A DNA stretch of 52,196 nucleotides, from the NCBI GenBank assembly GCA_012839765.1, contig DUMW01000101.1, positions 1 through 52,196 of the forward strand, given 5' to 3'. The translations under genes were made by a program, and so were the position numbers. This document shows, one piece after another, positions 6,601 to 47,698 of the stretch (position 1 is the first letter of the stretch; every line of letters begins with the position of its first letter). The notes under the pieces are model-generated. The model was not told the origin of the DNA. It saw only the letters and a list, made by a program, of their open reading frames with translations, and searched no databases. Origin of the DNA: Bacillota bacterium. Its GTDB lineage: Bacteria; Bacillota; Limnochordia; DUMW01.

Positions 6601-7308
6601 ATGCGAAAGAGACTGTGGATCGTGCACTGGATTGCTTTGGTGGTGTTTGGTGTGGTGGCGGTCAGTCAAGGCGCGGTGGTTTTGCTCTCTGACGATTTCG
6701 AGCGCTACCAGCCCGGCGAGGAGGTTGTGTGGGGCGAGATGCCGGTGCAGTTTCCCTTGGAAGGCCACTTTCCTGCGGTGGTGACCGAGGAGACATCTGC
6801 TTCCGGAGGGCAAAGTGTACTCCTAGACCATATTCCCAATGATCTGTCGGGGAATATCGGTGGATACCTGTACAAGCAGTTTGCGCCCCAAAAGCAGGTC
6901 ACGGTCACCTTTTGGGTCTGGGTGTCGGGACCGGGAAGGGCTTTCACCCTGTCGATGGGTTCTATCCCCGCCGATGGAAACGTTGGCCCTGGTGGTGCCA
7001 AGACCGGTGTTAGCTTGTATTTCAACAATGGAAACGTCCAGGGTTACGCCAACGGCTGGCAGAACACGGGATATGCCTACCCCTTGTCCCGTTGGTTCCA
7101 AATGCGGGTAGAGGTCGACACGGCCCGGCAGAATTACCGTGTGTTTGTCCGGGAGTCCGCCACAGCGTCCTGGTTTGACGTGGGGACCATTCCCTTCCGG
7201 AATGCGGTGGAGGAAATCGAGTTTGTTACCTTTGCCAACTATCAAAGTCCTCCCCGCTCAGTAGTGTTTTACCTCGATGACGTGGTGATTACCAGCGGGG
7301 GGAACTAA
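6601..7308 (+). CDS. Secreted ConA-like beta-sandwich protein, third paralogue
   Basis: 235 residues, with GGGAGG at 6587-6592 placed 8 nt before ATG. A signal peptide covers about residues 1-24 (hydrophobic core IALVVFGVVAV, cleavage after SQG). The mature domain follows the same order as the two proteins near 0.4-2 kb: DDFERY, QSVLL, VTVTFWV, VSLYFNNGNVQGYANG, a W with MRVEVD, YRVFV, PFRN and a terminal YLDDVVI. It is more diverged than those two are from each other. It lies directly downstream of the LacI operators and upstream of the sugar-binding protein, so it is probably induced by the same carbohydrate. Binding to a glycan is a reasonable inference for the fold; no catalytic motif is visible. 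Confidence 0.75.
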   Translation: MRKRLWIVHWIALVVFGVVAVSQGAVVLLSDDFERYQPGEEVVWGEMPVQFPLEGHFPAVVTEETSASGGQSVLLDHIPNDLSGNIGGYLYKQFAPQKQVTVTFWVWVSGPGRAFTLSMGSIPADGNVGPGGAKTGVSLYFNNGNVQGYANGWQNTGYAYPLSRWFQMRVEVDTARQNYRVFVRESATASWFDVGTIPFRNAVEEIEFVTFANYQSPPRSVVFYLDDVVITSGGN

Positions 7309-12657: not shown

Positions 12658-12679
12658 ATGACAAGCCGGAGGGTTGCTT

Positions 12680-13189
12680 ATGAACTTCAGGGAATTAAAA
12701 ATCAGAATTATCATATTAGTCGCTGTAATATCCCTCGGGGTACTCTTTGGGGCCAGGTTTGCCTATGAGCATCTGTTCCTGGGCTCCCTAAAGGAGGCCT
12801 TTTTGTCCATCGACGGGGTGGCGGATCTAAAGGTCGAGCGCGGCCAGCAGACCAATCTGGTGGTCACCCTGGAACGGGTGGAGCGGTTGGAGACTACCTA
12901 TGGGGCGATCCGGGCCTTAGCGGAGGAACGGCTGGGAAACCACTGGACTGTTGAACTGGTGGACCAGCGCAATGGGGAACTGGTGGAGCGGTACCATCAG
13001 CTCCATTACGCTCTGTGGCAGGCCATCAGTACAGGGGATTTCGTGGAGATGGCGGACCGGGTGGAGGCGGTGACCCAAGGTCTGGATGCCCGCATCACCG
13101 TCGACAGGGACTTTATCTATGTGGAGCTGGAAACTGAGGATGGGTATTTGTACGAGATTATGCCAAGACAAGGGGGGCAGGCATCATGA
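12680..13189 (+). CDS. Small membrane-anchored protein paired with the FtsH-like protease
   Basis: 169 residues from ATG 12680, with GGAGGG at 12668-12673 six nt upstream; TTG 12674 is a weaker in-frame start. One transmembrane helix lies at about residues 8-27 (IRIIILVAVISLGVLFGARF). A charged alpha/beta domain of about 140 residues follows, probably outside the membrane by the positive-inside rule (KIR before the helix). I do not recognise a family. It overlaps the FtsH-like gene by 4 bp (ATGA), so the two are translationally coupled and probably made in fixed proportion. Since that protease lacks the usual extracytoplasmic domain, this protein may supply it or act as an adaptor; this is inference. 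Confidence 0.65.
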   Translation: MNFRELKIRIIILVAVISLGVLFGARFAYEHLFLGSLKEAFLSIDGVADLKVERGQQTNLVVTLERVERLETTYGAIRALAEERLGNHWTVELVDQRNGELVERYHQLHYALWQAISTGDFVEMADRVEAVTQGLDARITVDRDFIYVELETEDGYLYEIMPRQGGQAS

Positions 13190-14661
13190 AAAGGGAGATC
13201 CTAATCGGCATCGGTATTGCCTTGGTGATCTTTGCCCTCGTCTCTGGTTGGGACATCACCCCCCTGTTAGGGATCGGGGTGCTCCTTTTTATTCTGAAAT
13301 ACTTCCTGGACACCAAAGGAGGTCAATACCAGACCGTGGGAGTGGCTACCCAGGGTGAGGTGCGCTCCCAAATTGGTTTCGATGATATCGGTGGCCAAGA
13401 GGTGGCCAAACGGGAGTTTATGGAGGCCTTGGATTTGGTGAAGGATGCCTCCCATTGTCGCCAATTGGGGATCCGGCCCCTCAAAGGGATCCTGCTTTAT
13501 GGGCCTCCGGGGACTGGGAAGACGCTACTGGCTAAGGCCGCCGCTACCTACACCAACGCGGCCTACTTAGCGGCCTCGGGCTCTGAATTTGTGGAAATGT
13601 ACGCGGGGGTAGGCGCCAAACGGGTGCGCAGTCTCTTTCAGCGGGCCAGGGAGTTGGCCCGGCAGCAAGCCAAAAAGTGTGCCATCATCTTCATTGATGA
13701 GATCGAAGTGCTGGGCGGAAAAAGAGGAAGACACACCAGCCATCTAGAATATGATCAGACATTGAACCAGCTGTTGGTGGAGATGGATGGGATCAAGACC
13801 GATGAGGAGATCTCGATCCTGGTGGTGGCCGCCACCAACCGGGTGGATTTGGTGGATGACGCCTTGCTCCGCCCGGGACGCTTTGATCGGCTGGTCAGTG
13901 TGGAACTGCCGGACAAAGCCGGCCGGTTGCATATTCTCAAGATCCATACCAGGGGGAAGCCTTTGGATGCGGAAGTGGACCTGGAGACGGTGGCCAAGGA
14001 GACCTTCGGCTTTTCCGGAGCCCACCTGGAAAGCCTGGTGAATGAGGCGGCCATTAACGCCATGCGGCAAAGGCGCGATGTGATCCGGATGGAGGATTTC
14101 CTCGAGGCCATCGATAAGGTGATGATGGGGGAAAAGCTTGACCGGACACCGACTAAGGCGGAGAAGGAACGGGTGGCGGTCCACGAGGTGGGCCATGCCT
14201 TGATCAGCGAGATCACAAATCCCGGTTACGTCGCCCGGGTAACTATCGTTCCCCGGGGCCGTGCCCTGGGTTACGTTCGGCAAAGCCCCAGCGCCGATCA
14301 GTATTTGTACACCCGCAAGGAGCTGGAGGATCAGATCGCGGTGGCCCTGGGCGGTGCCGTAGCCGAGGAAGTGGTGCTAGGCAGTCGCTCCACCGGTGCT
14401 AGCAATGATTTTCAACAGGCGGTGAAGTTGGCCAAGCGGATGATCGCGTCCGGCATGTCGGAGCTGGGGGTTGTGGATATGAAAGAGGTGCCTGGAGTGC
14501 TCTTGCATCGGACTGTCAGTTCTCTTATCCAACAGCGGGAGGCATGGGTGCAGAGGACTATCGCCGCCTATAGGAGGAAAATAGAGCAGGTGGCGGCCTA
14601 TCTGCTGCAGGAAGAAAGTGTGGACGGAACGCAATTCAGGAGTCTTGTGGGACTCAGCTAA
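13186..14661 (+). CDS. FtsH-like membrane AAA+ zinc protease, short form
   Basis: 491 residues. Two transmembrane helices (about 5-20 and 24-41) are separated by only a few residues, so the extracytoplasmic FtsH_ext domain of normal FtsH (over 600 residues) is missing. The AAA+ module has Walker A GPPGTGKT (106-113), a pore-type SEFVEMYAGVGAKRVR, Walker B IIFIDE (167-172) and the arginine-finger region LLRPGRFDR. The peptidase has HEVGH (333-337; usually HEAGH) and the STGASND segment carrying the third zinc ligand. All catalytic elements are intact, so it should degrade membrane or damaged proteins using ATP. It is coupled to the preceding membrane protein and lies 19 bp before cinA. It may be a second FtsH in addition to a canonical one elsewhere. 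Confidence 0.88.
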   Translation: MKREILIGIGIALVIFALVSGWDITPLLGIGVLLFILKYFLDTKGGQYQTVGVATQGEVRSQIGFDDIGGQEVAKREFMEALDLVKDASHCRQLGIRPLKGILLYGPPGTGKTLLAKAAATYTNAAYLAASGSEFVEMYAGVGAKRVRSLFQRARELARQQAKKCAIIFIDEIEVLGGKRGRHTSHLEYDQTLNQLLVEMDGIKTDEEISILVVAATNRVDLVDDALLRPGRFDRLVSVELPDKAGRLHILKIHTRGKPLDAEVDLETVAKETFGFSGAHLESLVNEAAINAMRQRRDVIRMEDFLEAIDKVMMGEKLDRTPTKAEKERVAVHEVGHALISEITNPGYVARVTIVPRGRALGYVRQSPSADQYLYTRKELEDQIAVALGGAVAEEVVLGSRSTGASNDFQQAVKLAKRMIASGMSELGVVDMKEVPGVLLHRTVSSLIQQREAWVQRTIAAYRRKIEQVAAYLLQEESVDGTQFRSLVGLS

Positions 14662-44272: not shown

Positions 44273-44287
44273 ACCGGTTTTTCATGC

Positions 44288-44350
44288 CCCCCGAACCCAA
44301 GTGCAGACCCCCTTTTGCACACTGGTTCGGGGGTATTTTTGTGCCCGGGA
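44288..44350 (+). terminator. Rho-independent terminator, two-tier stem
   Basis: Outer arms CCCCCGAACC (44288-44297) and its complement (44334-44343), an inner GTGCA/TGCAC stem, then TATTTTTGT. It ends the GH78 gene. Confidence 0.9.
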
Positions 44351-44473
44351 TTCCTATCTCAGGGAAAGATAGGTCTAAAGGGTCATTACAATGGCCCGGC
44401 CTAACTCATAGATTGAAGCATAAGCACTAAGCTTTTGAACCACTCCGCAGCTAAAACAAGTGAGGTGAACAAT

Positions 44474-44818
44474 GTGGGTTTCAGATGTGCTTGCCCATGT
44501 CCCGTAGATAGAGGTGCTTACAGCACTTTGGTTGCTGACCACCTGAGGCACCTGCGGTTTTGCAGTCGCTTTGCCTGTTGTCCTAGCCCGCCTGTGACAC
44601 CAGCTCCTGCTCCTGTTCAGACCAATGAACAAACCAATGTCCAAGTCTGTGTTCCCGTGAACTTCCTCGGGATTGGTATCACCGCAGGCCTTGATGGAAT
44701 CCTTGCCGGGTCTCAGAACTTGCAGTTAGATGCCCAACAGAGGACTGGAGTTGTGAAAACCCCCCTAGGTGACGTGCACGTGACCTTGGTCCCAAAGACC
44801 GGCGGTGCCGCCAGCTAA
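44474..44818 (+). CDS. Small Cys/Pro-rich protein with QTNEQTNVQVCVP motif, tandem member 1
   Basis: 114 residues if started at GTG 44474, where GAGGTGA (44462-44468) lies 5 nt upstream; an overlapping ATG at 44472 would give only 11 codons, and TTG 44435 is a longer option. The first 37 residues hold six cysteines (5, 7, 9, 30, 35, 36), then a Pro/Ala linker (PPVTPAPAP), then PVQTNEQTNVQVCVPVN, which recurs in the next gene. A glycine/hydrophobic stretch (LGIGITAGLDGILAG) and a beta-like tail (GDVHVTLVPK) follow. I do not recognise the family. Composition suggests a structural or surface protein; a spore-coat role would fit the organism but is unproven. Confidence 0.6.
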   Translation: MGFRCACPCPVDRGAYSTLVADHLRHLRFCSRFACCPSPPVTPAPAPVQTNEQTNVQVCVPVNFLGIGITAGLDGILAGSQNLQLDAQQRTGVVKTPLGDVHVTLVPKTGGAAS

Positions 44819-44864
44819 GGGTAAGTTAAGAAAATAAGAAAATTTGATTAAGAGGTGAATGAAT

Positions 44865-45137
44865 ATGGCGATTATCCCTGAGAACACCACTGGGCCGGTG
44901 CAGACCAATGAGCAGACCAACGTCCAGGTGTGTGTGCCCATTAATACTCTGGAGATCAGTGCCGACGTTAGTCTTGGCGGATTGCTTGATGGTGCCGCGG
45001 TAGCTGGTTCCGCCCAAGGAGTGGGAGTGGCTGCGGGTAATGCGATTACTCCAAACTCCATCTCGGTGCGCATCGACACCAGTTCTCCGGAAAAGGTGAG
45101 TGTAACCATTAACGGCGAGCCAGTGCCAGTTCAGTAG
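44865..45137 (+). CDS. Small protein with QTNEQTNVQVCVP motif, tandem member 2
   Basis: 90 residues from ATG 44865, with GAGGTGA (44852-44858) six nt upstream; ATG 44859 is too close. Order: short N-terminus (MAIIPENTTG), the shared PVQTNEQTNVQVCVPIN, then Gly/Ala-rich hydrophobic sequence (LGGLLDGAAVAGSAQGVGVAAG) and a beta-like tail (SISVRIDT, KVSVTINGEPVPV). No signal peptide. It shares layout with the preceding gene but lacks its cysteine-rich head. In the 17-codon motif nine codons differ synonymously and one conservatively, so the motif is under protein-level constraint. Function unknown. A terminator follows, making the pair a small operon. Confidence 0.72.
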   Translation: MAIIPENTTGPVQTNEQTNVQVCVPINTLEISADVSLGGLLDGAAVAGSAQGVGVAAGNAITPNSISVRIDTSSPEKVSVTINGEPVPVQ

Positions 45138-45150
45138 GTTAGCCTAGGAT

Positions 45151-45190
45151 GGTCAGGGCCTGCCTGTGGCGGGTCCTGACCAATTTGATA
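45151..45190 (+). terminator. Rho-independent terminator
   Basis: A 14-bp stem with two G-U pairs (45151-45164 with 45168-45181), loop TGT, then AATTTG. It closes the small-protein pair. Confidence 0.7.
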
Positions 45191-46538: not shown

Positions 46539-46656
46539 AGTCGGTAATTAATAATAGACTTCACTATTCTACTAGTTAATTCCGCAGAAAAGTGCTAGTA
46601 TGATTGTATAGGATAATCTCTTTCAAGGATAACCGTTGGAGATGGAGGGCCTGATA

Positions 46657-47698
46657 ATGAAGCCTTTTCGTGTCCTTGTGGTGGGCTGTGGGCAAATGTG
46701 CCATGCCTGGGTCAAGTACGCTAAGAACAGTTCCCATTGTGAGATTGTGGGCTTGGTGGATATCCACTTGGAGAAGGCGGAAAATGTCCGTATCCGTTAC
46801 GGTCTAGACTGTCCCACTGATTCTGACTTTGGGCGTCTTTTGGAAAAGACGAAGGCCAATCTCGTATTCGACATCACGCCCCCCGAGTGCCATCGGGATG
46901 TGGTGGTCACTGCCCTTCGTGCTGGCTGTGATGTCTTCGGGGAAAAGCCCATGGCAGCAACGATGGAGCAGGGCCGGGAGATGGTGAAAGTGGCGGGGGA
47001 GACCAACCGGACCTACGCGGTTATGCAAAACCGGCGGTACGTGAACAACCTTCGCTCTTTGAAGAGCTTCCTTGATGCGGGGACCATCGGCCAACCTACT
47101 TTTGTCGCAGCAGATTTCTTTCTAGGGCCTTATTATGGAGGGTTTTCGTAAGACGATGGCCAGCCCCTTGCTCTTGGATATGGCCATACATACCTTTGAT
47201 CAGGCCCGGTTTCTCATCGGGGGTGATCCCATTTCGGTTCGGTGCCATGAGTTTAATCCCCAGGGTTCCTGGTACGAAGGCAATGCCGCCGCGACTTGTA
47301 CCTTTGAATTTGACAATGGTGTGGTGTTTTCTTACCGCGGATGTTGGTGTGCCAAGGGATTCCCCACCTCTTGGGAGTCTAGTTGGCGGGTGGTTTGCAC
47401 CCGGGGTACCGTCCTATGGGATGGGAAAGGTTCACCTCAGGCCCAAGTGGCCATTCCCTTCGATCAACCGGTGGATCTCACTACCGAGGTTGCTCCGGTG
47501 GAAGTGCCGGCCACATCCGCCGGACGGGAAGGTCATGAAGGGTGCCTTGATGCCTTGTTTGCTTCCTTACGGTCAGGACGCACACCGGAGACCGATTGCA
47601 GGGATAATATTAAGAGTCTGGCGATGGTGTTTGGGGCCATCGAAAGTGCCCGGTCGGGTCAGGTGGTTGACCTGCGGGCCTTAGGTGTGGGGACATAG
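46657..47698 (+). pseudogene. Gfo/Idh/MocA-family oxidoreductase, disrupted by a +1 frameshift
   Basis: Start ATG 46657 has GGAGGG at 46643-46648. The first frame (to TAA at 47149-47151) encodes the NAD-binding half: RVLVVGCGQM, VGLVDIH, and CDVFGEKPMAATMEQG with the EKP motif. It reads GPYYGGF and then stops. The next frame (visible from 47135) continues GGFRKTMASPLLLDMAIHTFDQARFL, exactly what family members have at this point, through to the C-terminus at 47698. One extra T in the TTTT run at 47143-47146 explains the shift. Restored length is about 347 residues, normal for the family. It would oxidise a sugar or inositol derivative. It may be a real mutation, a sequencing error or slippage at the T run. 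Confidence 0.85.

Follow-up and report, generated by a model that had tools for sequence, protein, structure and literature searches.

Layout of the locus

The locus carries two small genes on the forward strand, gene 1 and gene 2, whose products share a 17-residue motif, PVQTNEQTNVQVCVP(V/I)N, and which lie between two strong hairpins (Table 1). The surrounding stretch of 52,196 nucleotides, hereafter the window, is one of the 121 contigs of a 2.56 Mb source genome that is 96% complete. Both GAGGTGA ribosome-binding sites noticed in the first-pass annotation were recovered, and each copy of the motif lies in frame behind one of them.

Table 1. Features of the gene pair and its flanks (positions in the window)
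Feature	Position	Strand	Details
Terminator of the preceding alpha-L-rhamnosidase gene	44286..44341	+	Hairpin then TATTTTT; -29.9 kcal/mol, z = -5.2
Weak sigma-E/sigma-K-like promoter candidate	44388..44415	+	ACAATGGCCCGGCCTAACTCATAGATTG; -10-like CATAGATT
Ribosome-binding site, gene 1	44462..44468	+	GAGGTGA
Gene 1	44474..44818	+	GTG start, 114 aa; codon usage supports the part from the motif onward, not the head
Motif copy 1	44612..44662	+	PVQTNEQTNVQVCVPVN, inside gene 1
Weaker-kept extension of the shared block, gene 1	44663..44713	+	27/51 bases agree with gene 2
Ribosome-binding site, gene 2	44852..44858	+	GAGGTGA
Gene 2	44865..45137	+	ATG start, 90 aa; codon usage supports coding
Motif copy 2	44895..44945	+	PVQTNEQTNVQVCVPIN, inside gene 2
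Strong hairpin	45150..45182	+	13 bases past gene 2; -30.3 kcal/mol, z = -5.3

Since the upstream hairpin terminates the alpha-L-rhamnosidase gene, the pair falls outside that operon. The downstream hairpin is likely the end of the transcription unit; there is no clear T run behind it, and a terminator scan under a stricter rule called no terminator. Set between these two hairpins, the pair looks like a transcription unit of its own. The promoter candidate is one mismatch each from a loosened sigma-E and a loosened sigma-K consensus of the B. subtilis type (general knowledge), and as one-mismatch sites occur across the window at 0.15 per kb for the sigma-E core and 0.52 per kb for sigma-K, it may be a chance match. 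The downstream neighbour encodes an MFS transporter and neither adjacent gene is a spore gene; further sugar-related genes nearby encode a MocA-type oxidoreductase, a DHDPS family protein and a GH4 enzyme. The GFO/IDH/MocA oxidoreductase gene (46636-47698, +) is present as two overlapping frames, 46636-47151 for the N-terminal domain and 47135-47698 for the C-terminal domain, a split that we read as a frame change, either natural or assembly-derived. Elsewhere in the window, an FtsH-like protein with AAA and M41 peptidase parts (13186-14661, +) lies behind a 171-residue protein (12674-13189) that matched no Pfam family, and three proteins judged similar by eye (405-1319, 1346-1990 and 6601-7308, all +) lie near a solute-binding-like gene; the protein at 1346-1990, the only one of the three scanned, gave a weak match to Laminin_G_3 in Pfam.

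The start of gene 1 had been placed at TTG 44435, the first TTG of its open frame. This codon lies upstream of the ribosome-binding site, which instead supports GTG 44474, in frame with the motif and at a spacing of 5 bases; we regard it as the best-supported start on these sequence signals. TTG 44528 and GTG 44594 are further in-frame options. The GTG sits two bases after ATG 44472, which opens a different frame and stops after 11 codons (TAG 44505-44507); that frame was considered as the real head of gene 1 and has a mild codon score, yet it contains three stops. As for the refuting condition named in the first-pass annotation, a first frame out of step with its start in related genomes, in the source genome it is the ATG that lies out of frame and the GTG that lies in frame. 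For gene 2, ATG 44865, 6 bases past the ribosome-binding site, is more probably the start than ATG 44859, which follows it at 0 bases. The predicted gene 2 protein is rich in Gly, Ala and Val, has one cysteine and a predicted pI of 4.05. No signal peptide is apparent by eye in either protein.

The head of gene 1 (44474-44608) requires more caution. The six-cysteine head attributed to this copy does have a frame that is open throughout, but its codon choice resembles out-of-frame DNA: it scores -0.14, where 45-codon segments of real genes score 0.16 +/- 0.11 in frame and -0.13 +/- 0.12 out of frame, and the sliding score in the gene 1 frame is positive only from about 44600-44618 on. From the motif onward gene 1 scores as coding, below the average gene, and gene 2 likewise scores as coding, lower than average. 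Because cysteine-rich coding sequence can give low scores in such tests, we take the score of the head as a warning and not as disproof; the head may be untranslated, decayed or just unusual. An RNA element in this segment was also considered and rejected: no Rfam match came near the gathering score, and the segment folds less strongly than shuffled sequences.

Shared motif, common origin and search for relatives

Both copies of the motif were confirmed, and the codon tally of the first-pass annotation was reproduced: across the 17 codons, 7 are identical, 9 differ synonymously and 1 differs conservatively (V/I). Third codon positions account for 10/11 of the base differences (binomial p = 1.3e-4 against 1/3), which supports the proposal that the protein sequence is selected; judged from these codons, purifying selection acts on the motif. 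When the window was scanned with the motif pattern at <=3 mismatches, only these two sites were found where 0 were expected, and none appeared in 100 shuffles. The occurrence of the pair of motifs is beyond chance. A four-residue period is visible within the motif, QTNE-QTNV-QVCV (44618-44650 and 44901-44933).

The similarity of the two proteins extends past the motif. A local alignment gives 22/34 identical residues with a score of 112, against a maximum of 66 among 3000 shuffles, and in whole-genome searches either protein as query recovered the other at 59% over 37 aa (E ~2e-8 to 3e-8). This similarity over 34 residues makes genes 1 and 2 diverged tandem paralogs. In the 17 codons 3' of the motif, base changes fall at all codon positions and, together with the low base agreement there (Table 1), indicate that constraint falls off fast; past the 34-residue block the likeness of the tails is not significant (local p = 0.086, global p = 0.39). 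The two genes thus derive from a tandem duplication in which the core was strongly kept and the remainder diverged. Their earlier description as unlike proteins is overstated.

That no described family was known for the motif has been borne out. Counting as a family match only a significant hit, above the curated cut-off where one exists, neither protein matched anything in Pfam, NCBIfam, PHROGs or PADLOC (the best E values, 0.06 to 0.24, are at chance level), sequence searches of the PDB gave no relative, and a 74-residue version of gene 1 had no match in Pfam. A count of copies in the source genome had been suggested, and it gave only two: searches with either protein returned no third copy. 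Loosening the motif pattern brought up 8 more places in that genome; each was read and rejected as an unrelated frame, one of them in a GH4-like enzyme. Searches of 72 further genomes from the class, 398 of the phylum and 381 of another class in the phylum likewise brought no relative to light; these sets overlap in part, and their nearest members are related at class level, none closer. Sub-threshold matches were all that these searches yielded, several with internal stops. Motif scans of genome contigs (one genome per species, 84,980 species) and of viral contigs returned 10 and 56 stretches, none of them a relative, and a looser DNA pattern gave 7 matches in the genome contigs, about the random-sequence estimate and all in unrelated frames. 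The motif scans demand a nearly exact motif and would miss distant relatives in which it has changed, and the genome-contig scans may omit genomes very close to the source genome. A tblastn search of phages and plasmids with the gene 2 protein gave no match. On these searches, the pair are lineage-specific orphan genes with no detectable relative in the databases covered. Structure prediction, which had been proposed as a check, gave no usable fold: as there were no relatives to align, AlphaFold models had to be built from the two sequences only and reached mean pLDDT values of 49 and 38.

Possible roles of the gene pair

The host is a spore-former by gene content, as had been supposed: SpoVS, GerA and YtfJ genes lie within the window and SpoIVA elsewhere in the genome. 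Our best guess, a tentative one, is that the gene pair encodes structural proteins of the spore coat or exosporium. During sporulation the mother cell would produce the proteins, which would lack an export signal and become part of an outer layer of the spore. The motif can be read as QTNE-QTNV-QVCV-P, in which valines alternate with N, Q, C or P in the style of a beta-strand; it might then serve as a common assembly strand that lets both subunits enter one polymer, its single cysteine being free to cross-link, while the variable ends would equip each subunit with a distinct surface. Several features fit this reading, namely that divergence of the motif is almost confined to third positions, that paralogy extends over 34 residues, that the pair has its own unit between hairpins, that the host carries the four sporulation genes and that a weak sigma-E/K-like site lies upstream. 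The lineage restriction fits as well, because, from one species to another, spore-surface proteins of comparable architecture are described as potentially "very dissimilar in sequence" (PMC7333573). Against it stand the neighbours, an alpha-L-rhamnosidase and an MFS transporter with no spore gene, the weak promoter match, the Cys-rich head, whose lack of coding support touches the most coat-like feature, and the failure to predict a fold. We keep our confidence in a spore-surface role low because there is no adjacent spore gene, firm promoter or structure. The coat, crust or exosporium role raised in the first-pass annotation is a candidate role, compatible with the apparent absence of a signal peptide, the separate transcription unit, the single cysteine in a beta-type motif and the weak sigma-E/K-like site.

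We consider it equally likely that these are lineage-specific small cytoplasmic proteins with another role unrelated to spores, for example as a regulator of, or partner for, the nearby sugar-use genes. The neighbourhood is one of carbohydrate metabolism (rhamnosidase, MFS, MocA-type oxidoreductase, DHDPS family, GH4) and direct evidence tying the pair to spores is lacking; however, the hairpins part the pair from both neighbours, and proteins rich in Gly, Ala, Val and Asn with no known domain look structural rather than enzymatic or regulatory. Should the pair not be spore-surface proteins, they would be typical duplicated orphan genes, otherwise ordinary, and the useful results would be the revised starts of the two genes and the doubt cast on the cysteine-rich head.

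It is less likely that gene 2 alone is functional and that gene 1 is a copy in decay or cut short, its head untranslated or frame-shifted and its translation, if any, beginning near the motif (GTG 44594, 74 aa). The out-of-frame ATG 44472 and the codon scores of the head point this way, the headless protein would be laid out like gene 2, and the split oxidoreductase gene indicates that indels, real or assembly-derived, occur nearby. Yet at the protein level the motif is kept, GTG 44474 follows a strong ribosome-binding site at a suitable distance and its frame is open throughout, GTG 44594 has no such site, and cysteine-rich genes can score low regardless. It is very improbable that the gene products are precursor peptides for some modified or secreted natural product and that the motif is their recognition sequence: tandem small genes with a kept block and variable ends would suit it, but no modifying enzyme or dedicated exporter lies alongside, the kept block is internal in both proteins, and no NCBIfam model matched.

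Comparison with known systems

The first-pass annotation had remarked on a superficial resemblance of the motif to chaplins, surface proteins of Streptomyces. The likeness is confined to the look of its alternating V/N/P wording: neither protein matched the Pfam chaplin model at E <= 1, and the host of the gene pair is an endospore-former. Endospore appendage (ENA) subunits are small proteins of spore-formers with a short N-terminal part, and their resemblance to the pair is a lead only; neither protein matched the Pfam model of the ENA core (DUF3992) at E <= 1, and the tails of the pair, 51 and 63 residues, are presumably too short to form that core. ENA subunits have a jellyroll fold with an N-terminal connector; the models of the two proteins, at mean pLDDT 49 and 38, are too poor for a comparison with it.

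Should the spore-surface reading hold, the pair would be of the same kind as CsxA and CdeC, cysteine-rich spore-surface proteins of Clostridia; proteins of this type are described as self-assembling, cysteine-bearing and lineage-variable in PMC7333573 and PMC7677010. The comparison is one of kind, with no sequence similarity shown; the gene 2 protein contains just a single cysteine, and the Cys-rich head of gene 1 may be untranslated. It is rather unlikely, though it would follow the same lines, that the pair represents a new family of paired spore-surface subunits from a poorly sampled spore-former lineage, in which the Q/N/V beta-strand motif with its one cysteine would be the shared polymerisation element. 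A spore-surface role would make the pair one more lineage-specific building block in a set known to vary greatly between species, and one that comes from a group without a close relative among the compared genomes.
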